A stretch of DNA of 64,000 bases from contig NZ_SAUZ01000010.1 of assembly GCF_004022215.1 (NCBI RefSeq), positions 1 to 64,000 on the forward strand. The letters run 5' to 3'. Numbering within the stretch: the first letter of the stretch is position 1; each line of letters starts with the position of its first letter. The notes under the pieces are model-generated. The model saw nothing but the letters and a program-made list of their open reading frames with translations. It was not told the DNA's origin and made no database searches. Shown here in pieces: positions 36,881 through 52,130 of this stretch. The stretch is from Paenirhodobacter populi (GTDB lineage: Bacteria > Pseudomonadota > Alphaproteobacteria > Rhodobacterales > Rhodobacteraceae). The position numbers and the translations under genes were made by a program.

Positions 36881-37728
36881 TCGTCGGCCACCCCGTTGCG
36901 CAGGGTGCCGATGCCCTCGGCGGTGATCTCGACCTCGTCGCCGGGTTTCAGCCAGATGGGCGGATCGAAGCGCGCGCCCGCGCCGGTGGGCGTGCCGGTG
37001 ACGATGATGTCGCCGGGGGCAAACGTGGTGAAGGTCGAGATATAGGCGATCTGCCGCGCCACCGGGAACAGCATCCGCCCCGTGCGGTCCGACTGGCGCA
37101 ATTCGCCGTTCACCCGGGTTTCCAGCGCGATGTCAAGGATCTGCGCCGGATCGGTGAAGGGCACCAGCCACGGCCCCATCGCGCCCGAGCGATCCCAGTT
37201 CTTGCCCTGCGTCACGTTGAATTTCGCGTGCCGCACCCAGTCGCGGATCGTGCCCTCGTTGCACAGGGTCAGCCCGGCGATGTGGGACAGGGCCTCGGCC
37301 TCGGGGATGCGGCGGCCGCCCTTGCCGATGACCACGGCGATTTCGCCTTCGTAGTCCAGCTGCACGCTTTCCGGCGGGCGGATCAGCGGCTGGCCATGGC
37401 CGACGAAGCCGCGCGCGAACCGCGGGAACAGCGACATATGGGGCGGCGCTTCCTGTCCGTCCCTGTATTCGGCGTTGCGGTCGGGGAAGTTCACGCCGAC
37501 GCAGATGATCTTTTCCGGGTCCCGCACGGGGATCGTATAGGTGAACTCGCCGGGGCCGTGGCTGGCGGCGCGGCCCTGCGCGGCGGCCAGAACCTCTGGG
37601 ATCGCGCCGGCGGCGATGACGTCGCGCAGCGTCGCATAAGGGAATTCGGCGGAGAGGGCGCGCACGCCATCCCCCACGCTCACGCCCCAGAAGGGGCGAC
37701 CGTCCACGGTGAAGGAAACGAGGTTCAT
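36877..37728 (-). CDS. hpaG: Single-domain FAH protein, homoprotocatechuate-pathway decarboxylase/isomerase
   Basis: A 283-residue FAH-family protein with the ligand region QLDYEGEIAVVIGKGGRRI (Asp-Tyr-Glu-x-Glu) and a C-terminal PGDIIVTGTPTGAG. It should perform the 5-oxopent-3-ene-1,2,5-tricarboxylate decarboxylase and/or subsequent isomerase step. In enterobacteria HpaG is a double-domain protein; here it has one domain, and a second FAH protein is encoded at 48248. The ATG at 37728 overlaps the DUF3500 stop. Family members with similar motifs have varied substrates, so the name rests on the operon. Confidence 0.87.
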   Translation of the reverse strand: MNLVSFTVDGRPFWGVSVGDGVRALSAEFPYATLRDVIAAGAIPEVLAAAQGRAASHGPGEFTYTIPVRDPEKIICVGVNFPDRNAEYRDGQEAPPHMSLFPRFARGFVGHGQPLIRPPESVQLDYEGEIAVVIGKGGRRIPEAEALSHIAGLTLCNEGTIRDWVRHAKFNVTQGKNWDRSGAMGPWLVPFTDPAQILDIALETRVNGELRQSDRTGRMLFPVARQIAYISTFTTFAPGDIIVTGTPTGAGARFDPPIWLKPGDEVEITAEGIGTLRNGVADE

Positions 37729-38975
37729 GCGTGATCTCCTTCGGCGGCGTTGCGCGCCCGATGCGCTGCGATCAGCGCGCGGCCGTAATCGTTGCCGTTC
37801 GGGATGCGGCTGATGACGTGGATGTGGAACTTCGCGGGTTCGGTATTGCTCAGCCACATGCCGGAGTGGTGGTCGAATTCCAGCATCACCACCGGGGAAT
37901 GGATGTGGTAGTAGAACGGATCGTCATCGCCATGCCCGCCGATCCAGCTGAAGAAGGTGCGGTCCAGATGATCCTCGATCTGCCTTATCCGGGCGCGGCG
38001 GGGGCCGTCGGGCCAGTGGATGTAGAAGGTCTCGCACAGGTCCAGCAGCGCGTGGCGCTGTTCGGGCGTGAAGTCGCGGGCGCAGGCGCCTTCGACCGGC
38101 ACGATGCGGTTGTCCTGAAACGCCCCGCCCAGATGCCGCTGATCGGCGAAGTTGAACCGCCATGCGGGCATGGCCGGGTCTTCCATCAGGGTGAAGATCG
38201 TCGCCTGTTCCTGCAACGCAGGTGCAAGCGACTGCATCAGCGCCAGCCCTTTCGCCTCTTCCTCCTTGAACATCGCAAAGAATTCACCGCTTTTCAGCAC
38301 GACCTCGTTCGGCTCCGTCCCCATGAAGGTCGGCGAGATCACCATCTGCCGCCCGAGGATCAGCACGTTGAAGCCGACATGGTGGCCGTAGATGTGCCAG
38401 CCCCAGGGTTCGCTGACCGAGGGGTTGCCGAACACCTCGAAATGGTAGGACCACTGGTTCATGATGTTGGTGAGGTCGTAAAGCTCGCCCAGAAACAGGT
38501 TCGCCTTCATCAGGCGGCGGATCTTCTGGAACCCGCGCGCCGAGGTGCAGGAGGAGAGCACATCCCAAAAACAGTCGCGCGACGCCTCGGACAGGTTTTC
38601 CAGCCGCACGCCCTCGGTGTTGAAGACAAGCTCGGGGTTGTACCAGCCGCGCCAGTTGCGGTGGTCGAGCGGCTTTTGCGCCGCCGCGCGTTCCGCTTCG
38701 GTCAGGGTGGCGAGCATCGCCTGCATCGCCGAAACCGCCAGTTCGACGTCGAAGCCTTCGTCCGCCAGTGTGAACAGCCCCGGCTCTGGCGTGCCGTCAT
38801 GGGTGATGCCGATGAAGGGCTCATCCTGCAGCCGCGCCCATTCCGCCTTCAGCGCCACGGCCTGCGGCGTCGCCAGAACCGGCTGCGAATAGGTCACGGG
38901 GTCGAGCCCATGCGACTTGCCGACCCGGTCATAGCTCTCGGGCAGGATGTAATCGCGGTAGTCGGTTGAAGTCAT
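37725..38975 (-). CDS. DUF3500 protein, first gene of the hpaGHI operon
   Basis: A 416-residue protein recognised as the DUF3500 family, whose function is not established. It contains WNPELVFN-like, WSYHFEVFGNPS, HIYGHHVGFNVLIL, MISPTFMGTEPNE-like and SPVVMLEFDHHSGMW segments; the several His clusters would suit a metal or cofactor site. There is no signal peptide. GGGGAGAGCC precedes the ATG at 38975. It is translationally coupled to hpaG, which suggests a role in producing or processing a ring-cleavage substrate. Any catalytic role is inference. Confidence 0.8.
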   Translation of the reverse strand: MTSTDYRDYILPESYDRVGKSHGLDPVTYSQPVLATPQAVALKAEWARLQDEPFIGITHDGTPEPGLFTLADEGFDVELAVSAMQAMLATLTEAERAAAQKPLDHRNWRGWYNPELVFNTEGVRLENLSEASRDCFWDVLSSCTSARGFQKIRRLMKANLFLGELYDLTNIMNQWSYHFEVFGNPSVSEPWGWHIYGHHVGFNVLILGRQMVISPTFMGTEPNEVVLKSGEFFAMFKEEEAKGLALMQSLAPALQEQATIFTLMEDPAMPAWRFNFADQRHLGGAFQDNRIVPVEGACARDFTPEQRHALLDLCETFYIHWPDGPRRARIRQIEDHLDRTFFSWIGGHGDDDPFYYHIHSPVVMLEFDHHSGMWLSNTEPAKFHIHVISRIPNGNDYGRALIAAHRARNAAEGDHA

Positions 38976-39045: not shown

Positions 39046-39063
39046 CTTCCACATTTCGGAAAA
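39046..39063 (-). promoter_or_regulatory. Regulon motif copy A, before the DUF3500-hpaGHI operon
   Basis: On the minus strand this reads TTTTCCGAAATGTGGAAG, about 70 bp upstream of the DUF3500 start. It is a TTCC-7 nt-GGAA palindrome and the most divergent of five related sites in the cluster (16-bp consensus TTTCCGCAATGTGAAM). Confidence 0.55.
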
Positions 39064-39096
39064 TCCGTAATTCGGCGGAAAAAGGATTATCGGCAT

Positions 39097-39126
39097 AAAA
39101 TAGATTTTGACATGAAAATCTATTTT
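39097..39126. promoter_or_regulatory. Perfect 12-bp inverted repeat, probable GntR operator
   Basis: AAAATAGATTTT-GACATG-AAAATCTATTTT has perfect arms and stands out as AT-rich in GC-rich DNA. It lies 38 bp upstream of the GntR start and 121 bp upstream of the divergent DUF3500 start. It is well placed for autoregulation and control of the hpaGHI operon. Confidence 0.75.
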
Positions 39127-39164
39127 TGTTTCCCTGTGAGGGAAGAATCGTCTCGGGTGTCCAG

Positions 39165-39812
39165 ATGGCCGTCAGCAAGACCGCAGCGCTTTACAGCGAG
39201 CTGAAGGAGGAACTGCTCAACGGCGGCTATGCGCCGGGCAGCAAATTGGCGATCGACTCGCTCGCCACGGATTTCGAGGTCAGCGCCAGCGCGGTGCGCG
39301 AGGCGCTGTCGCGGCTCACCTCGGAGCGGCTGGTGGAGGCGATGCCGCAGCGCGGCTTCACCGTGGCGCCGGTGTCGCGCGGGGATCTGATCGACCTGAC
39401 CGGCGTGCGGGTGGACATCGAGGTGCGCTGCCTGCGCAGCTCTGTCCTGCTCGGCGATGTGGAATGGGAGGCGCGGATTCTGGCGACCTGGCACCGGCTG
39501 TCGAAGACCGGCGCCACGCCCGAGGGCCGCGCCCATCCCGACTGGCCGCGGCTTCATGCGCAGTTCCACGACGATCTGGTGTCGGCCTGCGACAGCCTGT
39601 GGTGGCTGCGGCTGCGCGATCAGCTTTACGTGCAGGCGGAACGCTACCGGCGCATCCTGTTGCCGCGCGCCCGGCTGGAACGCGACATCGAGACCGAACA
39701 CCGCGAGATCATGGATCTGGCGCTGGCCCGCAAGGCCGATGCGGCGGCCGAGGCGCTGAGCGCGCATCTGCAACGCACCGCGCATGATCTGCTGGCGGCG
39801 GGGCTGGTCTGA
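39165..39812 (+). CDS. GntR-family regulator (FadR/FCD type)
   Basis: A 215-residue regulator from the ATG at 39165; an in-frame upstream ATG would run into the operator palindrome. The N-terminal winged helix includes LAIDSLATDFEVSASAVREALSRL near 28-51. The C-terminal helical FCD ligand domain carries scattered Asp/His positions such as HAQFHDDLV and EHREIMDLA that may bind metal. It is divergent from the DUF3500-hpaGHI operon and precedes the IclR gene by 48 bp. It probably responds to an aromatic acid or a ring-cleavage product. Confidence 0.87.
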   Translation: MAVSKTAALYSELKEELLNGGYAPGSKLAIDSLATDFEVSASAVREALSRLTSERLVEAMPQRGFTVAPVSRGDLIDLTGVRVDIEVRCLRSSVLLGDVEWEARILATWHRLSKTGATPEGRAHPDWPRLHAQFHDDLVSACDSLWWLRLRDQLYVQAERYRRILLPRARLERDIETEHREIMDLALARKADAAAEALSAHLQRTAHDLLAAGLV

Positions 39813-39860
39813 AATATCGGCTGCCGTCTGGAGGAGACGGCCTGAAAGGGAGGAGAGACA

Positions 39861-40670
39861 ATGGGGTATCAGGAGACAATTCCGGGTGTCGTGCGCGGCG
39901 AGGTGACCGGCACGCAATGCATCCGGCGGTCCTTTGCGATCCTGCGGCTGCTGGCGGGGGGCGACCATGACGGCGAAAAGCTGGTGGATATCGCCGGCGC
40001 GCTGAAGCTGTCGCATCCGACGACGCACCGGATCCTCAAGGCGCTGGAACAGGAGGGCATCGTCGAGCGCGCGGGCGGATCGCAGCGCTACCGGCTGGGG
40101 GCCGAGGCCGCGTGGCTGGGCGTCGGGCCGTTCAACCGCTGTCCGATCACCCGGCTGTCGGCCATCGTGCTTGAGGATCTGGCGCAGGCGACGGGGGATT
40201 CGATCTTCCTCTCGGTGCCGTCGCACAATGACGCGGTTTACGCAGACCGCCGTCTGGGCAACTGGCCGGTGCAGGCGCGCGGCGTCCATGTCGGGGCGCG
40301 CCGCCCGATGGGGGTCAGCGTCGGCGGGCGGGTGATGCTTGCCCATCTGGGCGAGGCACGGATGAAGACCGTGCTGGCCGAGAATGCGGACCGTTTCGCC
40401 GACTGGAACTGCCCGATGGACCAGGTGTTGCGGGGCATCGAGGACACCCGTGCGCAGGGCTATCTGGTCGATGACAGCCTGACCCGTCAGGGACGCCGGG
40501 CGATGGCCGTGCCGGTGCGCGATGTCGGCGGCCGGGCGATCGGCGCGATCAGCATCATCGCGCCCACGGCGCGTCTGGGGTCAGACCGCGTGGCGCGTCT
40601 GCTGCCGCTGCTGCGCGAGGGCGCGCGGCGGGTGGGAACGGCGCTGTTCGAGCAGCGCATGGCATCGTGA
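39861..40670 (+). CDS. IclR-family transcriptional regulator
   Basis: A 269-residue regulator. The N-terminal winged helix spans about 20-80 (LVDIAGALKLSHPTTHRILKALEQEGIV). The C-terminal GAF-like effector domain spans about 90-260. GGGAGGAG precedes the ATG. IclR proteins commonly control aromatic ring-cleavage genes and bind palindromic sites with TTCC/GGAA-like halves; the five motif copies in this cluster are candidates. Whether this protein or the GntR protein binds them cannot be decided from sequence. Confidence 0.88.
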   Translation: MGYQETIPGVVRGEVTGTQCIRRSFAILRLLAGGDHDGEKLVDIAGALKLSHPTTHRILKALEQEGIVERAGGSQRYRLGAEAAWLGVGPFNRCPITRLSAIVLEDLAQATGDSIFLSVPSHNDAVYADRRLGNWPVQARGVHVGARRPMGVSVGGRVMLAHLGEARMKTVLAENADRFADWNCPMDQVLRGIEDTRAQGYLVDDSLTRQGRRAMAVPVRDVGGRAIGAISIIAPTARLGSDRVARLLPLLREGARRVGTALFEQRMAS

Positions 40671-40687
40671 CCCGCAAGGCGGCCCGG

Positions 40688-40710
40688 ATTTCCGGCATGT
40701 GAACAGAAAT
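40688..40710 (+). promoter_or_regulatory. Regulon motif copy B, before hpaD
   Basis: ATTTCCGGCATGTGAACAGAAAT, ending about 85 bp upstream of the hpaD ATG. The outer five bases at each end are also complementary (ATTTC/GAAAT). It shares the 16-bp core with copies A, C, D and E. Confidence 0.6.
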
Positions 40711-40794
40711 CCCTCCGGCGCTTGCCTGTCCCGCCGCCGCAGGGGGATGTTCATCCCATCGCGGCACGCCTGCCGCCCGAGAGGAGGAGAAAAC

Positions 40795-41802
40795 ATGCAT
40801 ATTCCGGCGCCGGTCCTGAACCCGCCCTTCAACGTCACCCGGTCGAGCCATGTCGTGCTGACGGTGCGCGACCTCGATGCCAGCCGCACCTTCTACACCG
40901 ATCTGGTGGGGCTGGTGGTCAGCGATGCCGACAGCGAGACCGTCTGGCTGCGCGGGCGCGAGGAAAGCGCGCATCACAGTCTCGTGCTGCGCAAGGGCGC
41001 CACGCCGAACTGCCAGCGGCTCGGCTTTCGCGTGCTGACGGATGACGACATCCTGAAGGCGAAGGATCATTTCGACGGCATCGGCGTGCCCGCGCAGATC
41101 GTCGACGTGCCCTATCAGGGCAAGACGCTGCATGTCCGCGACGCGATCGGCATGCCGGTGGAGTTCACCTCCTCCATGCCGTTCCGCGAACGGATGTTCA
41201 TGGCCTATGACCAGTATCGCGGCGCAGCGGCGCAGCGGATCGACCATTGGCAGATACAGGCGCAGAACGTGCGCCGGGCCTTTGATTTCTGGCATCCTTT
41301 GGGGTTCCGCACCTCGGAATACACCTATTCCGAAGAGCCGGGCGGGGGCGTCGACCTCTGGGGCGTGTGGATGCAGCGCAAGGGCAATCCGCACGATCAG
41401 GTCTTCACCAACGGGCCCGGGCCGCGGCTGCACCATTTCGCCTATCTGCTGCGCGACACCGCCGATCTGATGCATGCCTGCGACGTGGCGGGCGCGCTCG
41501 GTCTTGGCCGGCGGCTGGAACGCGGGCCGGGGCGGCACGGGATCTCGGGCGCGATGTTCATCTATTTCCGCGACCCCGACGGGCATCGGATCGAGCTGTT
41601 CAACACCCATTACCAGAACATCGACCTTGAACCGCCGATCGGCTGGAGCCTGAGCAACCCGAAGCGCGCCGATCAGTGGGGCATGCCCGCCCGCGCCAAA
41701 TGGTTCAACGAGGCGACCGTGTTCGAGGGCGCCGAGCCGGTGGAGCCGGATCTGGCCGCCGATGTGCCGACGCTGGAGAAATTCCTTGAGATGACGGACT
41801 GA
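40795..41802 (+). CDS. hpaD: Homoprotocatechuate 2,3-dioxygenase (type I extradiol, VOC fold)
   Basis: A 335-residue extradiol dioxygenase that opens 3,4-dihydroxyphenylacetate to 5-carboxymethyl-2-hydroxymuconate semialdehyde. Two VOC modules are seen. Metal ligands are probably H151 (RIDHWQ), H214 (RLHHFAY) and E267 (HRIELFN). Second-sphere residues fit known homoprotocatechuate dioxygenases: H200 (GNPHDQ), H248 (GRHGIS) and Y257 (MFIYF). GGAGGAG stands before the ATG at 40795, and a regulon motif lies upstream. It resembles the Brevibacterium/Arthrobacter type rather than the E. coli HpaD fold. Metal (Fe or Mn) cannot be told from sequence. Confidence 0.92.
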   Translation: MHIPAPVLNPPFNVTRSSHVVLTVRDLDASRTFYTDLVGLVVSDADSETVWLRGREESAHHSLVLRKGATPNCQRLGFRVLTDDDILKAKDHFDGIGVPAQIVDVPYQGKTLHVRDAIGMPVEFTSSMPFRERMFMAYDQYRGAAAQRIDHWQIQAQNVRRAFDFWHPLGFRTSEYTYSEEPGGGVDLWGVWMQRKGNPHDQVFTNGPGPRLHHFAYLLRDTADLMHACDVAGALGLGRRLERGPGRHGISGAMFIYFRDPDGHRIELFNTHYQNIDLEPPIGWSLSNPKRADQWGMPARAKWFNEATVFEGAEPVEPDLAADVPTLEKFLEMTD

Positions 41803-41827
41803 AGGGCAGGGGCCTGTGGATATTGCA

Positions 41828-41858
41828 AAACGCCGGGCGAGGGGATCGCCCGGCGTTT
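41828..41858. terminator. Bidirectional terminator between hpaD and hpaF
   Basis: Perfect 13-bp stem AAACGCCGGGCGA/TCGCCCGGCGTTT with a 5-nt loop, flanked by A's on the left and T's on the right. This is the best intrinsic terminator in the window and serves both convergent genes. Confidence 0.85.
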
Positions 41859-41873
41859 CATTTTGCGGGCAGA

Positions 41874-42263
41874 TCAGCCCTTGTTCATGTGCTGGTGGAT
41901 CGAATTGGTCTTCCACGATCCTTCCGGATCGGCCTGATCGACGTAGAAGGTGATGCCAAGCCCGCGCCGGGCGCTTTCCTCGCGGAAATGCGCGACGACG
42001 ATCTCATAGGCTTTCGAGAAGAAGGCCTTGCGCACCTCGGCCGGGCGGCCCGCGCCGATGCGGCAGGTGACGTTGACATAGGCATGTTCGGGATTGCCGT
42101 CGGCGATCACGTATTGCGACACGGGCCAGGCCCGCACCCGCACGCCGCCGGTCGGAAAGACATCGGGGGCGGTGCGGAAATGGGCGGCGATCTTTTCCAG
42201 CAACTCGCCGATCCGGCCGCTGGATTCGAGGTTGCTGGAATATTCGACGATGCAATGGGGCAT
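41874..42263 (-). CDS. hpaF: 5-carboxymethyl-2-hydroxymuconate delta-isomerase
   Basis: A 129-residue tautomerase-superfamily protein, close to the family's usual 126. It begins Met-Pro-His, so Pro is exposed as the catalytic base after Met removal. Typical segments are CIVEYSSNLE and IADGNPEHAYVNVTCRI. It isomerises the hydroxymuconate product to the form that HpaG decarboxylates. It is on the minus strand, divergent from the DLH gene across motif copy C and convergent with hpaD. A much longer in-frame extension upstream has no ribosome-binding site and was rejected. Confidence 0.9.
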   Translation of the reverse strand: MPHCIVEYSSNLESSGRIGELLEKIAAHFRTAPDVFPTGGVRVRAWPVSQYVIADGNPEHAYVNVTCRIGAGRPAEVRKAFFSKAYEIVVAHFREESARRGLGITFYVDQADPEGSWKTNSIHQHMNKG

Positions 42264-42387
42264 GACGGCGTCCTGTCTGATAGGGCCCTGGTGGCCTCGC
42301 GCGCATGGCAGCGCGCGGGCGCGCGGGATGCAAGCGCGGGACGCCGATCTGTTCACGATGTGGATGCCCGGCGCCACCCGCCCCCGC

Positions 42388-42409
42388 GTTTTCGCAATGT
42401 GAACAAAAC
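42388..42409. promoter_or_regulatory. Regulon motif copy C, between hpaF and the DLH operon
   Basis: GTTTTCGCAATGTGAACAAAAC, palindromic at its ends (GTTTT/AAAAC). It lies in the 215-bp divergent region, 70 bp before the DLH start and 125 bp before hpaF, and could control both. Confidence 0.65.
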
Positions 42410-42478
42410 CCGCCGCCGCGCTTGTGCCCTCCCATCCCGCGCCGTTCAATCGCCGCAATGACAGGAGGAGGAAGGGCC

Positions 42479-43189
42479 ATGCCCGCAAGAGACATTGCCT
42501 ATAGCCATGCGGGGATCGGGATGCTGGGGCATTTCGAGCCGCCCGCGGACGGCGGCCCCCGCCCGGGCATCCTGCTGGTGCATGGGGCGCATGGTCTGGA
42601 CGATTTCATCATCGGCGTCGCGGGCCGCCTGTCGGCGCAGGGCTATGCGGTGCTCGCGCTCGATCTCTGGGGTGGGCGGGCACGGCCGCAGGGGCCGGAT
42701 GAGGTCGGCGCGGCGCTTGGCGGCTGTGCGCGCGACCGCGCGGGCTGGATGGCCCGGGTCGAGGTCGCCCGCGCCGCCCTGACCGCCCAGCCCGAGGTCG
42801 ATGGCGCGCGCAGCGGCGCGCTTGGCTATTGCTTCGGCGGCAGCACGGTTCTGGAATATATCCGCTCGGGTGGGGCGCTGACCGGCGGGGTCAGTTTCCA
42901 CGCCGGGCTCGACCTTGTGGAGAGCGACTGGAGCGCCGCGACGAAAAGCCCGCTGCTTATCTGCGCCGGTGCCGCCGATCCGATGTCCGGGATCGAGGAT
43001 CTGGGGCGCGTCGCCAGCGGGATGGAGGCTGCGGGCCTGCCATGGGAGCTGAACCTATACGGCAGGGTGAAGCACGCCTTCACCGAACCGGACGACCCCC
43101 GCCGCCCGCCCTTCGCCAAATACGACGCGAATGCCGATCGCCGCTCCTGGGCCGCGATGTCGGACTTCTTTGCGCATCTGTTCGCCTGA
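42479..43189 (+). CDS. Dienelactone hydrolase-family protein
   Basis: A 236-residue alpha/beta hydrolase. The Cys nucleophile C118 is in GYCFGG, D167 in AGAADPM and H199 in KHAFTEP, giving the Cys-Asp-His triad of dienelactone hydrolases. GGAGGAGGAAGGG stands before the ATG at 42479. It heads a small operon with an SDR and an NTF2-like protein. A lactone or ester formed in the aromatic route is the likely substrate; no dienelactone is expected in the standard homoprotocatechuate pathway, so this may belong to an upper, substrate-preparing part. Confidence 0.85.
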   Translation: MPARDIAYSHAGIGMLGHFEPPADGGPRPGILLVHGAHGLDDFIIGVAGRLSAQGYAVLALDLWGGRARPQGPDEVGAALGGCARDRAGWMARVEVARAALTAQPEVDGARSGALGYCFGGSTVLEYIRSGGALTGGVSFHAGLDLVESDWSAATKSPLLICAGAADPMSGIEDLGRVASGMEAAGLPWELNLYGRVKHAFTEPDDPRRPPFAKYDANADRRSWAAMSDFFAHLFA

Positions 43190-43197
43190 GGAATATC

Positions 43198-43980
43198 ATG
43201 GATCTGGGACTTACCGGCCGCACCGCTTTCGTCTGCGCCTCTTCGCAGGGGCTTGGCCTTGCCTGCGCCACCGCGCTTGCCCGCGAGGGGGCGGCGGTCA
43301 CGCTCAACGGGCGGAACGCGGAAAAGCTTGCCCGCGTGGCGCATGACTTGCGCGACACCTTTCCGGGCGCCCGCGTCGATTACGTCGCGGCCGACCTGAA
43401 CACCGCCGGGGGACGCGCAGCGATCCTTGCGCAGTTGCCCGAGGTGGATATCCTCGTCACCAACAACGAAGGGCCGAAACCCGGCGGGCTGGAAAGCTGG
43501 GACGAGGCGGCCCTGATCGGCGCGATGGAGATGAACATGATCCCCGCCGTGCAGCTGATGCGGGCCTATATCCCCGGCATGCGCGCGCGCAAATTCGGGC
43601 GGATCGTCAACATCACCTCGGCCATGGTCAAGAGCCCGCGCTATTTCATGGGGCTGTCGACCGCGGCGCGCACCGCGCTGACGGCGATTTCCAAGGCCGT
43701 GGCGCGCGAAGTGGTGGCCGACAACGTCACCGTCAACAACCTGATGCCGGAAAAGATCGACACGCCGCGGCAAGACGCCATCGCCGCGCATTTCATGAAG
43801 ACCGAGGGGCTGACCCGCGATCAGGTCCGCGCCCGCACCATCTCGACCATCGCGGCGAAGCGCTTTGGCGAGGCGGCGGAGTTCGGCGATGCCTGCGCCT
43901 TTCTGTGCGCGGCGCAGGCGGGCTATATCTCGGGGCAGAACCTGCAGCTTGACGGCGGCACCTACGAGGGGCTGATCTGA
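43198..43980 (+). CDS. SDR-family protein lacking the catalytic Tyr and Lys
   Basis: A 260-residue Rossmann-fold SDR with CASSQGLG (glycine motif) at 13-20, a VTNN variant of the NNAG motif and ITSAM with S141. Where Tyr-x-x-x-Lys should stand the sequence is LSTAA, so L153 replaces Tyr and A157 replaces Lys. The later NLMPEKIDT region also differs from the usual PG motif. The C-terminal GQNLQLDGGT is normal. A recognised SDR subgroup has this kind of active-site change. It may be an enzyme with altered chemistry or a binding protein. It lies 8 bp after the DLH gene. Confidence 0.82.
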   Translation: MDLGLTGRTAFVCASSQGLGLACATALAREGAAVTLNGRNAEKLARVAHDLRDTFPGARVDYVAADLNTAGGRAAILAQLPEVDILVTNNEGPKPGGLESWDEAALIGAMEMNMIPAVQLMRAYIPGMRARKFGRIVNITSAMVKSPRYFMGLSTAARTALTAISKAVAREVVADNVTVNNLMPEKIDTPRQDAIAAHFMKTEGLTRDQVRARTISTIAAKRFGEAAEFGDACAFLCAAQAGYISGQNLQLDGGTYEGLI

Positions 43981-44375
43981 TGGGGCTGATCGCGCACGAC
44001 AGCCCCCTTGGGCAGGAGCTTATGGCCTTTGAAGGGGAACGCCGCCGGGCGCTGATCTCTGGCGATGCGGCGGCGCTCGACCGGATCCTGCATCCGGATC
44101 TGGTGCATGTGCATTCCTCGGGCATGGTGCATGGCAAGGCGGAGTTCATCGCCCATGTCGGGCGGATGGGCGGCTTTGTGGACATCACGCGCGGCCCGGT
44201 CGAGCTGCGCACGACCGGGGCGGACGGCGCGCTGATGACCGGGCCGACGGTGAACCGGGTGCGCCGGCTCGACAGTGGCGAGATCGTCGATCTGACCGCC
44301 TTCGGCACCGTCGTCGCGCTGCGCGGGGGCGATGGCTGGCAGGTGTTGCTGTCGCAGATCACCTTGCGGAAATGA
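43980..44375 (+). CDS. NTF2-like (SnoaL/DUF4440-type) small protein
   Basis: A 131-residue single-domain protein with the NTF2-like pattern: an N-terminal helix (ERRRALISGDAAALDRIL), HPDLVHVHSSGMVHGKAEFI, and a C-terminal beta-sheet with GDGWQVLLSQIT. Its ATG overlaps the SDR stop by one base, so it is translated with it. Proteins of this fold act as small hydratases, isomerases or partner subunits. The His pair in LVHVHSSG could be catalytic. Function in the aromatic pathway is inferred from context. Confidence 0.78.
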   Translation: MGLIAHDSPLGQELMAFEGERRRALISGDAAALDRILHPDLVHVHSSGMVHGKAEFIAHVGRMGGFVDITRGPVELRTTGADGALMTGPTVNRVRRLDSGEIVDLTAFGTVVALRGGDGWQVLLSQITLRK

Positions 44376-44390
44376 TCCGTCCGCCGCCCC

Positions 44391-44417
44391 CTTCCGCAAT
44401 ATGAAACGATGCGGAAG
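44391..44417 (+). promoter_or_regulatory. Regulon motif copy D, before the MFS-monooxygenase operon
   Basis: CTTCCGCA-11 nt-TGCGGAAG is a perfect 8-bp palindrome containing the core CTTCCGCAATATGAAA. It lies 120 bp upstream of the MFS ATG and just after the NTF2-like gene. Confidence 0.65.
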
Positions 44418-44536
44418 TTCCGTTAGGACAGGCGAACGATCCGGGGCAATGTGGCGCAAGTGAAGGCAGGCCGGCCAGGGAGACTCCGCGCAGATGCGGA
44501 AAGACCGGCCCCGCCGAGGTTCTGGGAGGAACTCAC

Positions 44537-45754
44537 ATGTCGACTTTGATCAAGGCCCCGCTGGCGCGGGTGCTGATTGTGTATGGCCTTGGCGTCGCCG
44601 CCGCGATGTGCGTCAGCGAAGCCGTGACCGAACTGGGCAAGATCGCCGCGGAGTTCCATCCCCCCTCGCGGGCTGTCGTCGGGCTGATCATGTCGATGCC
44701 GGCGATGATCGTCGCGCTTGGGGCGTTGCTGGCCGGGTATTTTGTTGACCGGGTGGGCGACAGGCGGATCCTGTTCCTTGGCGTGGTGGTGATGATCTTG
44801 GGTGATCTGTGCGTGATCGTCGCGCCCTCGCTGCACCTGCTGCTGGCGGCGCGGGCGCTGACCGGGGTGGGCTATGTGCTGACCGCCGTCGCCGCCGTCA
44901 CCGCGCTGATCCGGCTGACCTCGGGCGGGCAGCGGACCATGGCGCTGGCGCTGTGGTCGACCTTCGTGCCGATGAGCTTTCTGGTCCCCTTCGTTTCGGC
45001 CGGGATTGCCGGGGCGATCGGGACGTGGCGGGCGGCCTTCGGTTTTCACATCGCCTTCATGACCGGGTTGCTGATCCTGGCCGCGCTGGCCATCCCGCGC
45101 CCCGAGGTGAAGGGCCGCCCCGATCACAGTCGCGGCGTGGGCCGGGTGCTGCGCGCGCCCATGGTCTACCTGCTGGGGATTTCCTTCGCCGGCGACGCCT
45201 TCTTGCAGACCGGGGTGCTGGCGACGCTGGGGCATTACCTTTCGGCGAAATACCACGTCGAGGAAGTCGCGGTGGAACACTGGAACGCGGTGTCGATGAT
45301 CGTGAATGCCGCCGCCTGTCTGGGTGTCGGGATCATGCTGCGCCGGGGCGTGTCGAGCACGGCGATCACCACCCTTGGCCTGATCGTCACCGCCGTGCCG
45401 GGGATCGTGCTTTACAGCAGCCATATCGGCTTCATGCCCTCGATCATCGCGGTCTGGGTGCTGATGTTCGGCTCGGGCCTGCTGGTGGGCATGTGGGCGC
45501 TGGTGCCCGGCGTGGCCCCTTCGCCCGAAAGCACCGGCGCGACCAGCGGGCTCGTGACGCAGCTCACGCTGTTCGGGGTGCTGCTCGGGCCGCCGCTGTT
45601 CTTTGCCGCGCAGGCCGCGCTTGGCCCGGGGCCGATCCTGACGGTGTTCCTGATGTCCATCGCCGTCTGTGCTCTGCGCTATCCGGTCTGCCGCCTTGCC
45701 GACCGTTCGCCCCGCCTTGCCCATGGCGCGCCGGCCGAAGTGCCGGTCGCCTGA
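44537..45754 (+). CDS. MFS transporter
   Basis: A 405-residue membrane protein with twelve predicted segments and the A-motif GYFVDRVGDRRIL near 67-79. GGGAGGAAC precedes the ATG. It follows motif copy D and is followed 24 bp later by the FAD monooxygenase, so it is probably the importer (or exporter) of the aromatic substrate or an intermediate. It is distinct from the TRAP system further downstream, giving the cluster two uptake routes. Confidence 0.85.
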   Translation: MSTLIKAPLARVLIVYGLGVAAAMCVSEAVTELGKIAAEFHPPSRAVVGLIMSMPAMIVALGALLAGYFVDRVGDRRILFLGVVVMILGDLCVIVAPSLHLLLAARALTGVGYVLTAVAAVTALIRLTSGGQRTMALALWSTFVPMSFLVPFVSAGIAGAIGTWRAAFGFHIAFMTGLLILAALAIPRPEVKGRPDHSRGVGRVLRAPMVYLLGISFAGDAFLQTGVLATLGHYLSAKYHVEEVAVEHWNAVSMIVNAAACLGVGIMLRRGVSSTAITTLGLIVTAVPGIVLYSSHIGFMPSIIAVWVLMFGSGLLVGMWALVPGVAPSPESTGATSGLVTQLTLFGVLLGPPLFFAAQAALGPGPILTVFLMSIAVCALRYPVCRLADRSPRLAHGAPAEVPVA

Positions 45755-45778
45755 GACCATACCGATCTGGAGGAAAAC

Positions 45779-47086
45779 ATGCTTGATATCGCCATCATCG
45801 GCGCCGGCCCCGGCGGCCTCGCCACCGCGCTGCGCCTGCATCAAAAGGGCTTCCGCCCGAAGATCTACGAAGCGGTCCCGGACCTGAAGCCGCTTGGCGT
45901 CGGCGTCGACATCAAGGTCTACGGAACCAAGGAACTGACCGAGCTGGACCTGCTCGACCGCTTCCGCGAAATCTCGGTCGAGGCGACGGAATCGATCTTC
46001 TACACCGGTCACGGGCAGGAGATCTTCGGCGAGAAATGCGGCCGCCACATCGGCTACGAGCACGAACAGCGCTTCGTCCATCGCGGCACCTTGCAGTTCA
46101 TGCTGCGCGAGGCGGTGATCGAACGGCTTGGCCCCGATGCGATCGTCTACGGCGCCCGGTTCCAGAGCTTCGAGCAGGACGAGACCGGCGTCACCGTGCA
46201 TTTCGCCCCGCAGGACGGCGTGCCGGCCAGCATCCGCGCGGATGTGGTGATCGGCGTCGACGGCATCCATTCGGCGGTGCGCAAGCAGGTCCTGCCCGAC
46301 AGCAGGCGCACCCATTATTCCGGCATCGCCATGTATCGCGGCGTCACCGTGATGCCGCCCTACCGCGACGGCGGCACGATCCTGCACATCGGCGATCCGA
46401 TCCGGCAGGGCAGCCTGATCGTCTATCCGATTGCCAACAACGTCGACGGCAAAGGCAGCCAGCTCATCAACTGGGTGTGCGAGCAGCACGGCAAGCCCAA
46501 GGGGATCGAGGACTGGTCCGTCCGCGTCGGCCCCGAGGACATCGCCCATGTCTTCGACGAGGTGAAGCTGGATTTCCTCGACGTGGGCGAGATGATCCGC
46601 AACGCGCGCGAGATCTATATCTACCCGCTGATCGACAATGATCCGCTGGACCAGTGGTCCTTCGGGCGGGTCACGCTGCTGGGCGATGCGGCGCATGCCA
46701 TGTATCCGCGCGGTGGCAACGGCGTGTGTCAGGCCTTCGTCGATGCCCGCGTCATCGCGGAAAAGCTGGCCGAAATCGCCGATCCCGTCGCCGCGTTGCA
46801 GGCCTATGAGGGCGCGCGGCGCGAAAGCGTCAACCGGCTGGTCATCGCCAACCGCGGCGAAGGTCCCGAGGTGATCCGCCGTCTGGTCGAGGAGAAATCC
46901 GGCGGCAAGCCCTTTGACGACATCGACGCGATCATCCCGCGCGCCGAGATCGAGGCGCTGTTCATGGAATACCACCGCATGGCCGGGATGAAGCGTCCCG
47001 ACGATGCCGCGAAAGACAATGCCTTCAAGCCGGTCTTCACCGAGGAAACGATGAAGAAGACCGCCTTCAAGGAAGACATCCGCTGA
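45779..47086 (+). CDS. FAD-dependent aromatic monooxygenase (UbiH/salicylate-hydroxylase type)
   Basis: A 435-residue class A flavoprotein monooxygenase. FAD motif GAGPGG is at 8-13, the DG motif is VDGIHSAVRKQV in mid-protein and the GD motif is LLGDAAHAMYPRGGNG near 301-316. GGAGGAAAAC precedes the ATG. It would hydroxylate, or hydroxylate with decarboxylation, an aromatic ring using NAD(P)H and oxygen. In this cluster it is the only visible hydroxylase and so may form the dihydroxyphenylacetate for HpaD. The usual two-component HpaBC pair is absent, which suggests a different starting compound. Confidence 0.85.
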   Translation: MLDIAIIGAGPGGLATALRLHQKGFRPKIYEAVPDLKPLGVGVDIKVYGTKELTELDLLDRFREISVEATESIFYTGHGQEIFGEKCGRHIGYEHEQRFVHRGTLQFMLREAVIERLGPDAIVYGARFQSFEQDETGVTVHFAPQDGVPASIRADVVIGVDGIHSAVRKQVLPDSRRTHYSGIAMYRGVTVMPPYRDGGTILHIGDPIRQGSLIVYPIANNVDGKGSQLINWVCEQHGKPKGIEDWSVRVGPEDIAHVFDEVKLDFLDVGEMIRNAREIYIYPLIDNDPLDQWSFGRVTLLGDAAHAMYPRGGNGVCQAFVDARVIAEKLAEIADPVAALQAYEGARRESVNRLVIANRGEGPEVIRRLVEEKSGGKPFDDIDAIIPRAEIEALFMEYHRMAGMKRPDDAAKDNAFKPVFTEETMKKTAFKEDIR

Positions 47087-47138
47087 TACGGCGCTGCCCT
47101 GGCGCTGCATACTTTCATCCGAAAAGGGAGTGATGAAT

Positions 47139-48194
47139 ATGACGACGAAACCGCGCGTGATCGATGCGAACATGCACTGGCTGCCCGATACGCTGTTCAC
47201 CGACGAGGATCTGCGCGAAAAGATGATGCGCTGCATTCCGCGGCAGAACAACATCCATGTCTCGATGACGCCGATCAAAGGCAAGAACCTCAACCAGATC
47301 ATCATCGAGGAACCCAAGGGCTATGTGAACATCAACTACGCCGAGGGCCAGTACAACATCGAAAGCCAGTTGGCCGACATGGACAAGGCGGGCATCGACC
47401 ATGCGGTGTTCCGTATCCCCGTGTGGCAGGAATGGCTGGATCTGGATTGTTCCAAGCGCATCAACGACGGTCTGGCGGATTACGTCAGCCGCTCGGGCGG
47501 GCGGTTCACCGCGCTGGCCGTCTGCCCGCCCTGGGGCGACAAGACGATGATCGCCGAGGTCGAACGCTGCATCGACCAGCTTGGCTTCAAGGGGGTCCAG
47601 CTTGCCTGCAAATATGGCGACATCTTCCTCGATGACGAGGCGTTCTTCCCCTATTTCGAGTTCCTGAACGACCGCAAAATCCCCGCCGTGGTGCATCACA
47701 CGCCGCTGCCGGTGGATTACAATTCGATCCTGACCTACAACAACCAGCGCCGCCAGTATGGCCGCTGCATCGCGCAGGGCACGGCCGTCGGGCGCGAGCT
47801 GTTCTCGGGCCTGTTCGACCGCTTCCCGAACCTGAAGCTGAGCCATTCGATGCTGGGTGGCGGCTTCTTCGCCTTCGTCGACATGCTGGTGCCGAAGCCG
47901 CGCCATGCCTATGGCGATGCGGTCGACCGTTTCGACACCGGCAATTCCAACCTGCGCGAGCAGCTGAAGAACAACCTGTTCTTCGACATTTCCGGGCCTC
48001 CGCAATGGGGCAAGAAGCAGCTGGAATGCGCGGTCGAGGTGCTGGGCGAGGACAACATCCTTTACGGAGCCTCCTATCCGATCCGCAAGGACTGGTTCTT
48101 CGACGGGGTGCCGGTGGTCGAGGAACTCGACATCTCGGACGAGGCGAAGGCCAAGATCTTTTCGAAGAACGCCGAAAAGCTGTTCGGCATCTGA
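47139..48194 (+). CDS. Amidohydrolase-2 (ACMSD-like) protein with altered metal ligands
   Basis: A 351-residue TIM-barrel protein of the PF04909 family, which includes ACMSD and resorcylate/carboxyvanillate decarboxylases. The first-strand metal motif, normally His-x-His, is DANMH, so N11 replaces the first His while H13 remains. A middle VVHHTP His and a KLSHSM His remain. The strand-8 Asp, normally in a GSDYP box, is replaced: YGASYPIR has Ser. The start at 47139 is chosen because GGGAG lies 8 nt upstream; ATG 47133 and GTG 47130 are alternatives. Family role would be decarboxylation or C-C hydrolysis; the substitutions make the chemistry uncertain. Confidence 0.8.
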   Translation: MTTKPRVIDANMHWLPDTLFTDEDLREKMMRCIPRQNNIHVSMTPIKGKNLNQIIIEEPKGYVNINYAEGQYNIESQLADMDKAGIDHAVFRIPVWQEWLDLDCSKRINDGLADYVSRSGGRFTALAVCPPWGDKTMIAEVERCIDQLGFKGVQLACKYGDIFLDDEAFFPYFEFLNDRKIPAVVHHTPLPVDYNSILTYNNQRRQYGRCIAQGTAVGRELFSGLFDRFPNLKLSHSMLGGGFFAFVDMLVPKPRHAYGDAVDRFDTGNSNLREQLKNNLFFDISGPPQWGKKQLECAVEVLGEDNILYGASYPIRKDWFFDGVPVVEELDISDEAKAKIFSKNAEKLFGI

Positions 48195-48247
48195 ACGACC
48201 TATCGGGCGCCGTAACCGCGGCGCCCCCTTTCCGACAGGGGTTTCCC

Positions 48248-49102
48248 ATGAAAATTGCCCGTTTCACCGAATCCGGCCGGACCCGGATCGGCAAGGTCGT
48301 TGACGAAAGCATCGTCGATCTGACGCCGGTCGTGGGGGAGGGCGCCTCGATGCGCCGGGTCATCGCCGATCTGGCGGCGCTGCGCCCGGCGCTCGAGGCG
48401 TTCGACGGCCCGGCTTATGCGCTGGATGCCGTGCGGCTTGAGGTGCCGGTGCCGGATCCGCAGAAATTCCTCGCCATCGGGATGAACTACGCCAAGCACG
48501 CCGAAGAGGCGCGGCAGGCCGGCATCCCGATCCCGTCGAGCCAGATGTGGTTCAACAAGCAGGTCTCCTGCCTGAACGCGCCCTTCGATCCGGTGGTCAA
48601 GCCCGACGCCTCGGACAAGATGGACTACGAGGTCGAACTGGGCGTGGTGATCGGCAGCCGCTGCCGCCATGTCGCGCGCGAGGATGCGCGAGGCGTCATC
48701 GCGGGCTATGTGATCGTCAACGACGTTTCGGCGCGCGACTGGCTGCCGAAATCGCCGACCTTCACCTTGGGCAAGTCGTTCGACACCCACGGCCCGGTCG
48801 GCCCGTGGATCACCACCGACGACGAAATCCCTGATCCGCTTGATCTGGGGATGAAGCTCTGGGTCAATGGCGAGCTGCGCCAGAACGACCGCACCAACGA
48901 CATGATCTACGACATCTACGACCAGATTTCCTACCTGAGCACGGTGATGACGCTGGAACCCGGCGACATTCTGGCGACCGGCACGCCCTCGGGCATCGGC
49001 GCGCCGAAAGGGATCTTCCTTCTGCCGGGCGACGTGATGCGACTGGAGATCGAGCGTCTGGGCGCGATCGAGGCCACCGTGGTCGCCGAGACCCGCGCCT
49101 GA
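48248..49102 (+). CDS. Fumarylacetoacetate hydrolase-family protein
   Basis: A 284-residue FAH-family protein. The metal region KMDYEVELGVVIG, the NDVSARD segment and KSFDTHGPVGPW are all present, as is the C-terminal GTPSGIG. It lies 53 bp after the amidohydrolase in the same operon. It is a second FAH protein besides HpaG and may supply the isomerase half that bifunctional HpaG proteins carry, or act on a different ring-cleavage product. Family members cleave C-C bonds, decarboxylate or isomerise, so the exact reaction is open. Confidence 0.85.
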   Translation: MKIARFTESGRTRIGKVVDESIVDLTPVVGEGASMRRVIADLAALRPALEAFDGPAYALDAVRLEVPVPDPQKFLAIGMNYAKHAEEARQAGIPIPSSQMWFNKQVSCLNAPFDPVVKPDASDKMDYEVELGVVIGSRCRHVAREDARGVIAGYVIVNDVSARDWLPKSPTFTLGKSFDTHGPVGPWITTDDEIPDPLDLGMKLWVNGELRQNDRTNDMIYDIYDQISYLSTVMTLEPGDILATGTPSGIGAPKGIFLLPGDVMRLEIERLGAIEATVVAETRA

Positions 49103-49120
49103 GGCGCGGCCATGCCGCCA

Positions 49121-49139
49121 TTGTCCGCAATGTGAAAGA
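49121..49139 (+). promoter_or_regulatory. Regulon motif copy E, before the TRAP transporter operon
   Basis: TTGTCCGCAATGTGAAAGA, about 92 bp upstream of dctP. The core matches copies C and D closely, which places the transporter under the same control as the catabolic genes. Confidence 0.6.
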
Positions 49140-49230
49140 CTCGCGCCGCGCGCCTTGGCAGGCGCGGCGCCGCCGACCAAGATCGACGTTCAACCCCGGA
49201 TGGGAGCCGGGGGCAATTGGGGAGGATACC

Positions 49231-50256
49231 ATGAACGCATTCCGTGCGACGCTGGCCGCATCCGTTCTGGCGCTTGCGCCGGGGCTGGGGATGGCCGAAA
49301 CCAGCCTGATCTTCAACACCTACCTGCCGCCGCATGACGAGCTGTATCAGATCGCCGTGCGCGATTTCGCCGCCGCGATCGAGCGGGAATCCGCGGGCAG
49401 TCTCAAGGTCGTCATTCCCGATGCCTCGCTGGCGCCCTCGGACCGGCAATATGAGATGGTCCGCGACGGCATCGCCGATATGGCGCTGGTGTCCTCGGGC
49501 GGGGTGCCGCAGCTTGTGGCGCTGAACCGGATCGCCGATCTGCCGATGAATTCGCCCTCGGCGCGTGCCGCCTCGATCGCGCTGTGGGAAACGTATAACA
49601 CCTATTTCCTGCCCTTCGACGAATTCAAGGGCGTCAAGGTGCTGTCGACCAGCGTGCTGCCGGGGCGGCAGATCCTGTCGCTGCGCCGGACCGATGTGCA
49701 GGAGGTCGGCGACATGTCGGGGGTCAAGCTCTGGTCGCCGCCCGGCGCGCTGAGCGAAACCGTCCGGCTGCTGGGTGCGGTGCCGGTCAACTCGGAATTC
49801 ACCGACCTGCAGGAATATGTGACCAAGGGCACGGTCGACGGCATGGTGATGGCGGCGGGTTCCGCCAGCAGCGCGCGGGTTCTGGATTACGTCACCTCGG
49901 TCACCGAGGTGCCGGGGGGGCTCGGCTCGCTGTCCTTCGCGGTTTTCATCTCGGGCGAGCGGTGGAACGAACTCGACGCGGATCAGCAGGCGGCGGTGCT
50001 GCGCGCGGCCGAGGGCCTGCCGGAACGCACCGGGGCGGCGGCAGATGCGGCCGAACGCGAACTGGACCCGGTGATGGCGAAGATCCCGACGCACAAGCTC
50101 GAAGGCGCGTCGCTGGCGGGGTTCGAGGCCAGGCTTGAGGCCCGGATCGACGACTGGAAGACGCGCGCCGCCGCCAAGGGACTGCAGAACCCCGACGAGG
50201 TTCTGGCCTTCTACCGCGACGTCCTTGCCCGTGAAACCAGAGACAGTCTCGACTGA
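49231..50256 (+). CDS. dctP: TRAP transporter substrate-binding protein
   Basis: A 341-residue DctP-family periplasmic protein. The signal peptide of about 22 residues ends GLGMA-ET. Typical parts are AVRDFAAAIERES, VRDGIADMAL and GVKLWSPPGAL, the last including the region where an Arg contacts substrate carboxylate in this family (here LPGRQIL and RRTDV are candidates). GGGAGGAT lies before the ATG at 49231. With dctQ and dctM it forms a sodium-coupled importer, probably for an aromatic acid used by the cluster. Confidence 0.9.
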   Translation: MNAFRATLAASVLALAPGLGMAETSLIFNTYLPPHDELYQIAVRDFAAAIERESAGSLKVVIPDASLAPSDRQYEMVRDGIADMALVSSGGVPQLVALNRIADLPMNSPSARAASIALWETYNTYFLPFDEFKGVKVLSTSVLPGRQILSLRRTDVQEVGDMSGVKLWSPPGALSETVRLLGAVPVNSEFTDLQEYVTKGTVDGMVMAAGSASSARVLDYVTSVTEVPGGLGSLSFAVFISGERWNELDADQQAAVLRAAEGLPERTGAAADAAERELDPVMAKIPTHKLEGASLAGFEARLEARIDDWKTRAAAKGLQNPDEVLAFYRDVLARETRDSLD

Positions 50257-50325
50257 TCTCGCACGTTCCCTCCGACGCCGCCCGGGTCTTCCCGGGCTGC
50301 ATGGAAGGAACGACTGGAGACCGCC

Positions 50326-50835
50326 ATGATTGCCAAAATCAACCTCTGGATCATCCGCATCTGCACCACGATCGCCGGCATCGCCCTTGTCTTCATGGGG
50401 GCGATCGCCTTTGTCGACAGCATCGGCCGGCCGCTGGGGCATCCCCTGCCGGGGGCCAGCGAATATGTCAGCTTCGCGCTGATGATCTTCTTCTTCGCCG
50501 CGCTGCCGGTGGTGGTGAAGGACGATGCGCATATCCGGGTCGGGCTGTTTTCCGACCTCTACCGGCCGCGCCTGATGCGGATCGAGCGGTACTTCACCGC
50601 CATTCTGGAAACCGCGGCCTTTGCCGCCTTCGCCTGGATGATGTTCGATCAGGCGGCGCGGCTGGAACGTTTCGGCACGCTGTCGGTGTTCTTTGAAATC
50701 CCGATGGCGCCCTGGGTGATGGCGGCGGGCGTGTTCACCGTCGTCGCCACCTGGTTCGCGCTGATCCGGCTGCGCCATCTGGACACCGACCCCCATCCGC
50801 ATCCTCATGCCCTGCCCGACGAGGAAGACACCTGA
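50326..50835 (+). CDS. dctQ: TRAP transporter small membrane subunit
   Basis: A 169-residue protein with four predicted membrane segments (around residues 10-32, 48-65, 90-110 and 130-150), as expected of DctQ. The C-terminal tail is His/Pro-rich (DPHPHPHALP). The stop overlaps the dctM start by one base. It stabilises the large subunit in the inner membrane. Confidence 0.9.
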   Translation: MIAKINLWIIRICTTIAGIALVFMGAIAFVDSIGRPLGHPLPGASEYVSFALMIFFFAALPVVVKDDAHIRVGLFSDLYRPRLMRIERYFTAILETAAFAAFAWMMFDQAARLERFGTLSVFFEIPMAPWVMAAGVFTVVATWFALIRLRHLDTDPHPHPHALPDEEDT

Positions 50836-52130
50836 TGCTGACCCTTTTCGTCCTCTCCGCGCTGGTCGGGCTGATCGCCTTCACGCGGGTTCCCCTTGGT
50901 CTGGCGATGATGTTCGTCGGCACCGCTGGGATCGCCACGATCCATCCGCGCGGCTTCGGGGCGGCGCTGGCCATTTCCGAACAGCAGGTGATGAAGCTGG
51001 CGCTGAACTACCAGTTCTCGGTGCTGCCGCTGTTCATCCTGATGGGGGTGTTCATCGTCAAGGCGGGCTTGGCCGACGAGATGTTCGAGGCGGCGCGCCG
51101 CTGGCTCGGCCGGTTCCGCGGCGGGCTCGGCATGGCCACGATCATCGCCTGCGGCGGGTTTTCGGCGATGTGCGCCTCCTCCTCCGCCTCGACCGCGACG
51201 ATGGCCAAGATCTCGCTGCCCGAACTGGAAAAGGCGGGGTATGACAAGGGTTTCGCCGCCGGGTCCATCGCCGCGGGCGGCACGATGGGGGTGCTGATCC
51301 CGCCATCGGGCGCGCTGATCATCTATGCGCTGCTGACCCAGCAGAGCGTCAGCGCGCTGTTCGTCGCGGGGATCCTTCCGGGACTGGTGCAGGTGGTGAT
51401 CTATATCGGGGTGATGATGGCGATCGCCGCGCTGAAGCCCGACTGGGTGCCGGTCGGCACCCGCTACGGCCGGGCCGAGCGCTGGTCCGCGCTTGGCAAG
51501 ATCTGGGGCCTGCTGGTGCTGTTCGCGCTGATCATGGGCGGGCTGACGCGCGGCTGGTTTACCGCGACCGAGGCGGGCGGCATCGGTGCGGGCGGGGCGT
51601 TCCTGTTCCTCATCTTGCGCCGCAAGCTGACGTGGAAGGTTTTCGTCGACAGCATCGTCGAGGCGGCCAAGATCTCGACCATGATCTTCATCGTGGCGGC
51701 GGGGGCGCTGGTGCTGAACCAGTTCATCAACCTGTCGGGGATTTCGGGAAACACCATCCGGTTCATCCAGTCGCTCGACCTCAGCCCGATGATGATCGTG
51801 ATCTGTTTCGTGGTGTTCTACGTGGTGCTGGGCTGCCTGATGGACGGTTTCGCGATGATCTTCCTGACCGTGCCGATCATCGCCCCGATCATTCAGGGGC
51901 TGGGATTCGATCTGGTCTGGTGGGGGATCGTCACCGTTCTGGTGGTGGAGATCAGCCTGATCACCCCGCCGGTCGGGCTGAACGTCTTCATCCTGAAAGC
52001 GATGCTGCCAAGCCTGCCGGTGCAGCAGATCTTCAAGGGGATCGCCCCTTATGTGGCGGCGGATGTGCTGCGGCTGGCACTGCTGCTGGGCTTTCCGGCG
52101 CTGGCGCTATGGCTGCCCAGCATGATGTGA
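50835..52130 (+). CDS. dctM: TRAP transporter large permease subunit
   Basis: A 431-residue DctM with about twelve hydrophobic segments. It contains the typical FPLGLAMMFVG-like start, MCASSSASTATMAKI, GGTMGVLIPPSGALIIYA and ITPPVGLNVFILK segments. It forms the translocation channel with dctQ. It is the last gene on the plus strand of the aromatic cluster and is followed by a UUCG-type hairpin. Confidence 0.92.
   Translation: MLTLFVLSALVGLIAFTRVPLGLAMMFVGTAGIATIHPRGFGAALAISEQQVMKLALNYQFSVLPLFILMGVFIVKAGLADEMFEAARRWLGRFRGGLGMATIIACGGFSAMCASSSASTATMAKISLPELEKAGYDKGFAAGSIAAGGTMGVLIPPSGALIIYALLTQQSVSALFVAGILPGLVQVVIYIGVMMAIAALKPDWVPVGTRYGRAERWSALGKIWGLLVLFALIMGGLTRGWFTATEAGGIGAGGAFLFLILRRKLTWKVFVDSIVEAAKISTMIFIVAAGALVLNQFINLSGISGNTIRFIQSLDLSPMMIVICFVVFYVVLGCLMDGFAMIFLTVPIIAPIIQGLGFDLVWWGIVTVLVVEISLITPPVGLNVFILKAMLPSLPVQQIFKGIAPYVAADVLRLALLLGFPALALWLPSMM

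Follow-up and report, generated by a model that had tools for sequence, protein, structure and literature searches.

A conserved IclR-type operator is predicted to govern six promoters of an aromatic degradation cluster in Paenirhodobacter populi

Control of aromatic pathways by regulators of the IclR family is well known, and MhpR of E. coli activates transcription from about -58. For the operators of IclR group 1, the comparative survey of Suvorova and Gelfand (2021; PMC8222616) gives the consensus GKTYCRYW3-4RYGRAMC. Against this background we analysed a stretch of 64,000 nucleotides of Paenirhodobacter populi (assembly GCF_004022215.1, contig NZ_SAUZ01000010.1, positions 1 to 64,000, hereafter the window), which carries a cluster of hpa-type catabolic genes, transporter genes and a gntR-iclR regulator pair, with copies of a 16-bp motif in front of its operons. 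In our judgement this motif is quite probably the operator of the cluster's own IclR protein, the predicted activator of six promoters, which would respond to a compound of the pathway. All three parts of this proposal (IclR as the reader, activation, and a pathway compound as inducer) we infer from sequence.

The 16-mer TTTCCGCAATGTGAAM has six matches within 3 mismatches in the window; 100 shuffles gave a mean of 0.50 such matches and a largest count of 3, so that none had six. A preliminary description of this DNA had reported five copies, and these were confirmed at their places, each with 1-2 mismatches (14-15 of 16 letters). They precede the DUF3500 operon (39047-39062, minus strand; -35 TTGCCG at 39029-39024, -10 CCTGAT at 39006-39001, predicted start ~38994), hpaD (40689-40704, plus strand; -35 TTGCCT at 40722-40727, -10 GGATGT at 40745-40750, predicted start ~40757), the DLH-SDR-NTF2 operon (42389-42404, plus; -35 TTGTGC at 42422-42427, -10 TTCAAT at 42445-42450, predicted start ~42457), the operon for an MFS transporter, a flavin monooxygenase (FMO), an amidohydrolase and an FAH-family protein (44391-44406, plus; -35 TAGGAC at 44424-44429, -10 CAATGT at 44447-44452, predicted start ~44459) and the TRAP transporter operon (49122-49137, plus; -35 TTGGCA at 49155-49160, -10 CAAGAT at 49178-49183, predicted start ~49190). 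The distance of 70-120 bp to the start codon given in that description holds for the DUF3500, hpaD, DLH and TRAP copies (72, 91, 75 and 88 bp, respectively), but not for the MFS copy, which lies at 131 bp. Likewise, the outer palindromy that it noted is visible in the MFS, hpaD and DLH copies but does not recur consistently when the columns are aligned; the flank feature common to the copies is an A/T-rich patch at positions 17-20, directly after the 16-mer. Its statement that the copies cover all five main starts proved incomplete, as hpaF carries a sixth, weaker copy of its own (42351-42366, minus; -35 TTGCAT at 42333-42328, -10 TGCCAT at 42310-42305, predicted start ~42298).

The comparison was extended to six lineages, namely P. 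populi itself, Azorhizobium, Paracoccus litorisediminis, Thioclava and two further relatives designated G034 and G039, with three near-identical Thioclava plasmids counted once. Orthologues of the IclR protein are rare: at E<=1e-70 they were found in 3 of 394 genomes of the family, P. populi included, and at E<=1e-60 in 1 of 18 genomes of the genus and 1 of 385 of the class, each time in P. populi only. Identity is 76% in Azorhizobium doebereinerae, 71% in Paracoccus litorisediminis and 75% on the three Thioclava plasmids. All of these carry the cluster, and G034 and G039 carry it rearranged. The motif stands before hpaD and DLH in 6/6 lineages each, before DUF3500 in 5/6, before the TRAP operon in all four lineages that have this operon in the stretch compared, and before MFS or FMO in 5/6, the Azorhizobium copy being degenerate and that of G034 lying before FMO. 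Sites have travelled with rearranged operons: the FMO and TRAP operons of G034, moved and inverted, each still have their own site, and in G039 hpaD, DLH and TRAP are rearranged with their sites retained, while FMO comes after hpaD there without a site of its own. A matrix built from 20 sites outside the window ranked the five window copies 1-5 among ~128,000 positions. The earlier suggestion of a single regulon is thus supported from sequence, by orthologous operons in six lineages, persistence through rearrangement and specificity. In Thioclava the whole cluster lies on plasmids of 428-444 kb, and the TRAP operon is not beside the cluster either there or in the Azorhizobium stretch compared. 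Searches of the order and phylum with the amidohydrolase (E<=1e-100) returned only P. populi among the genomes drawn, and an IMG/VR scan with the flavin monooxygenase gave no relative.

The motif copies obey a strict promoter geometry. This was evaluated in a set of 25 sites, from which two matches were left out (G034 15466, with 3 mismatches and no TTG at 17, and 44357 in the window), and in a set of 31 sites that adds six beyond the 3-mismatch limit (five of hpaF and the Azorhizobium MFS site). When only the motif was used to align the sites, 18/25 had a TTG starting exactly 17 bp downstream of the motif, as compared with 0-2 of 25 at each other offset up to 44; the count is 18/27 with both dropped matches kept and 23/31 in the larger set. 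Within the window, four of the five sites first described have TTG at 17 and the fifth (MFS) has TAG, and 4/5 at any offset was reached in 0 of 20000 simulations with the same dinucleotide make-up. For the 25 sites the largest count at any offset was 6 in 5000 trials, a figure that overstates the contrast in that related sites are taken as independent; the window figure, coming from non-orthologous promoters, is free of this. A weak -10 element follows at a spacer of 17 (T at its sixth place in 19/25, A at its second in 13/25), and 7 bases past it there is an A in 17/25, with C just before in 14/25, as at a transcription start. Counted back from the 17-17 spacing and this +1 signal, the motif centre falls near -60, which would be an activator position if the start suggested by these weak elements is correct. 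Moreover, all 31 retained sites face their gene, and the two dropped matches do not.

The hpaF copy deserves separate consideration, since the preliminary description had assigned hpaF to the DLH site. Weak matrix matches are present in the hpaF-DLH gap, and a composite model trained without hpaF-type sites and without the lineage under test placed 42351-42366 (minus) at rank 6 of the 64 kb, with a score of 17.3; 5 of its 16 places differ from the consensus proposed earlier. Counterparts were found in Azorhizobium, P. litorisediminis, Thioclava and G034, so that the copy is present in 5/5 lineages with an adjacent hpaF; in 5/5 TTG stands at exactly 17, which is not fully independent evidence, as the model rewards TTG. 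It scores less well than the other sites do: two unrelated places outrank it in Thioclava, and its 6.3 in G034 is no better than the background of 6.0. What speaks for it is its position and its conservation, not its score. With an oriented copy of its own, hpaF probably does not share the DLH site, and the former assignment was abandoned.

Two further arrangements were considered and rejected. The match at 44357-44372 (minus), in the 3' end of the gene preceding MFS, is probably due to chance and not a tandem site, since it lacks a TTG at 17 and five relatives have no counterpart there. Nor was a consistent tandem or three-box arrangement found, strong second matrix matches beside the sites being absent except for 44357 and the weak ones facing hpaF. 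At the MFS promoter an additional CGGAAGTTCCG palindrome lies between motif and -35 (44410-44423) and is partly retained in Azorhizobium and P. litorisediminis.

On its own the 16-mer is not rare at a tolerance of 3 mismatches. At 2 mismatches or fewer the genome of P. populi (4.78 Mb) has 12 places, of which 6 fall in the cluster; at 3 or fewer it has 55, a count that hpaF-type sites elsewhere (5 mismatches) would escape. When the 55 places were scored with the composite model from the other lineages, the five sites first described obtained 27.8-39.9, the top score among the remaining 50 was 20.9, and only 1 of these 50 has TTG at 17. Ten high-scoring outside places were examined, and each lies inside at least one open frame of at least 150 codons, an observation that carries little weight in G+C-rich DNA. 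In 17 genomes of the same genus without this IclR (E<=1e-60), places within 2 mismatches numbered 2-7 per genome and 73 in total, with no pair on one contig within 10 kb in the list, read by eye.

Of the two regulators between which the earlier description left the choice open, the evidence favours the IclR protein (39861-40670, plus strand; IclR_C 77.6 bits and HTH_IclR 39 bits, both above cut-off). Of the 17 letters of GKTYCRYW3RYGRAMC, each of the 31 retained sites matches 13-16, as compared with a random mean of 6.7 and a random probability of 0.002 for 13; the remark that the copies look typical of IclR sites thereby finds backing in the published group 1 consensus (PMC8222616). In addition, the IclR recognition helix is nearly identical across the six lineages, including orthologues with as little as 47% identity. 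The GntR/FCD protein (39165-39812, plus; GntR 61.7 bits, FCD 55.3 bits) could also be proposed as reader of the 16-bp motif, being encoded by the first gene of the gntR-iclR pair in 6/6 lineages, but this is quite improbable. FadR-subfamily GntR boxes, according to PMC4494728, are TKGT/ACMA 3 nt apart, and boxes of this type fit the sites no better than random DNA (mean best fit 8.0/11 vs 7.8), for which reason GntR was rejected as the reader. A distinct AT-rich inverted repeat lies before gntR (39097-39126; 12-bp arms, 6 bp between) and has similar elements as counterparts in all five other lineages; we propose it as a candidate GntR operator. Finally, a plasmid of Agrobacterium vitis encodes a 52% identical GntR and carries no annotated IclR within 10 kb of it; the best matrix score nearby was 13.5, against 20.7-28.1 for the window copies.

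If the IclR protein is the reader, it could also act on the same sites as a repressor that the inducer releases. Since IclR proteins of all signs are known (PMC8222616), we keep this as a minor, rather unlikely alternative. Against it, the sites share one orientation, precede weak core promoters and keep a fixed distance to the -35 that follows, and it is this position, this orientation and these weak promoters that favour activation; furthermore, the 16-mers end 72-131 bp before the gene start, whereas the commonest IclR position in PMC8222616 is ~-22 from it. That the copies are chance or non-regulatory repeats would agree with the abundance of 16-mers within 3 mismatches, but is hardly credible in view of their enrichment, their conservation over diverged and rearranged loci, the fixed -35 spacing in non-orthologous promoters and the separation from the other 50 genome places. 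Several observations nevertheless weigh against activation by IclR as proposed. The gntR and iclR genes occur together in 6/6 lineages and never separate, so that the assignment to IclR is a family-level argument. IclR proteins often regulate themselves, according to PMC8222616, and no oriented motif copy was found at the iclR gene. There is no recognisable site before DUF3500 in G039, TTG is not at 17 in 7/25 sites (in 2 of these it is one base off or shifted), and the predicted +1 is an A in only 2/6 window promoters. A consensus sigma-70 scan listed none of the six promoters, whose -10 elements are weak.

In the mechanism that we prefer, activation by IclR, a dimer of the protein (or a pair of dimers) would bind the pseudo-palindrome KTYCGCAATRTGRAM the same way round at each promoter, its centre near -60 and 17 bp separating it from a weak -35 (TTG), itself followed after 17 bp by a weak -10. 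With the pathway compound present, IclR would most likely recruit RNA polymerase to six otherwise weak promoters, and uptake, hydroxylation or decarboxylation, ring cleavage and the lower pathway would be induced together. The inducer is likely an acid of the pathway, given that the predicted targets comprise transporters and hpa-type enzymes. One may go further and tentatively picture a two-tier circuit, although we hold it at somewhat less than even confidence: GntR would sense one compound and control gntR-iclR through the AT-rich repeat, and IclR would drive the six catabolic and transport promoters from near -60, in a unit found on chromosomes and plasmids whose 17-17 geometry is kept through rearrangement.

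As for the genes of the cluster, the DUF3500 protein (37725-38975, minus strand; PF12006 317.2 bits) heads an operon that extends on the same strand down to 35284 and includes FAH1, hpaH-like and hpaI genes (PF01557 212.1 and PF03328 182.1 bits). Within it, 36062-36880 has no Pfam match, and 36877-37728 passes as FAH family, its score for the HpaG equivalog TIGR02303 (158.2 bits) lying below the cut-off of 276.4. The hpaD gene (40795-41802, plus) is of the homoprotocatechuate 2,3-dioxygenase type (TIGR02295 325.4 bits, cut-off 321.4), and the hpaF-type gene (41874-42263, minus) encodes a CHMI family isomerase (PF02962 125.5 bits, under the NF011605 cut-off). On the plus strand follow DLH, SDR and DUF4440/SnoaL-like genes (42479-44375), then those for the MFS transporter, the flavin monooxygenase, a decarboxylase-like amidohydrolase and a second FAH protein (44537-49102), and the TRAP genes DctP, DctQ and DctM (49225-52130); a second GntR/FCD regulator lies after the TRAP operon (53137-53826, minus). 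The nearest PDB entries to the flavin monooxygenase are 3c96 and 2rgj, presumably PhzS-like, and the nearest relatives of the amidohydrolase are 5-carboxyvanillate-type decarboxylases (both genes within 45779-48194); on account of these relatives the upstream substrate is probably other than plain 4-hydroxyphenylacetate. DUF3500 (37725-38975) and the dienelactone-hydrolase-family protein (42479-43189) fall in one regulon. According to PMC12388069, a fungal DUF3500 protein is proposed to be a dioxygenase yielding 5-hydroxydienelactone, so that ring cleavage in this cluster may follow a second route in addition to that of HpaD. The genome has another DUF3500 gene outside the window (contig C23, 297466-298290).

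The analysis proposes, for a rare aromatic pathway, which regulator probably reads the operator, what that operator is, and where the -35, -10 and start of six promoters would lie; the DUF3500 protein, of unsettled role, would belong to the pathway so regulated. Because the geometry is so rigid, activation by IclR lends itself to a direct test, and if the inducer becomes known, a biosensor might be built with the operator as one of its parts. Within the open-access literature, outside which most subscription journals lie, we found no paper on this regulon, a statement that leaves aside the 181 groups of PMC8222616.

Set beside known systems, the cluster shares hpaD, hpaF-type, FAH, hydratase-like and HpaI-family genes with hpa clusters, and differs from them in the additional DUF3500, flavin monooxygenase, decarboxylase-like amidohydrolase and in-cluster IclR and GntR regulators. 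MhpR of E. coli offers likewise an IclR-family control of a meta-cleavage pathway. Its motif as tabled in PMC8222616, GGTGCACCTGGTGCACA, is different, and six promoters would be served in the cluster here. The group 1 operators of that survey share the odd-length pseudo-palindrome, the WTT-11-AAW subgroup being the closest, and likewise have aromatic pathway and transport targets; in most copies here, however, the inner letters G6 and T12 are non-complementary, and the site therefore has a direction. The NpdR operator of Rhodococcus, GTTCMRYATMRTGAWS (Table 1 of PMC8222616), has similar half-sites and spacing and also belongs to an IclR-family regulator of an aromatic pathway, but in another organism and for another pathway, the likeness being one of consensus letters only. 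Overall, the predicted circuit is conventional for bacteria, yet its promoter rule is unusually clear.

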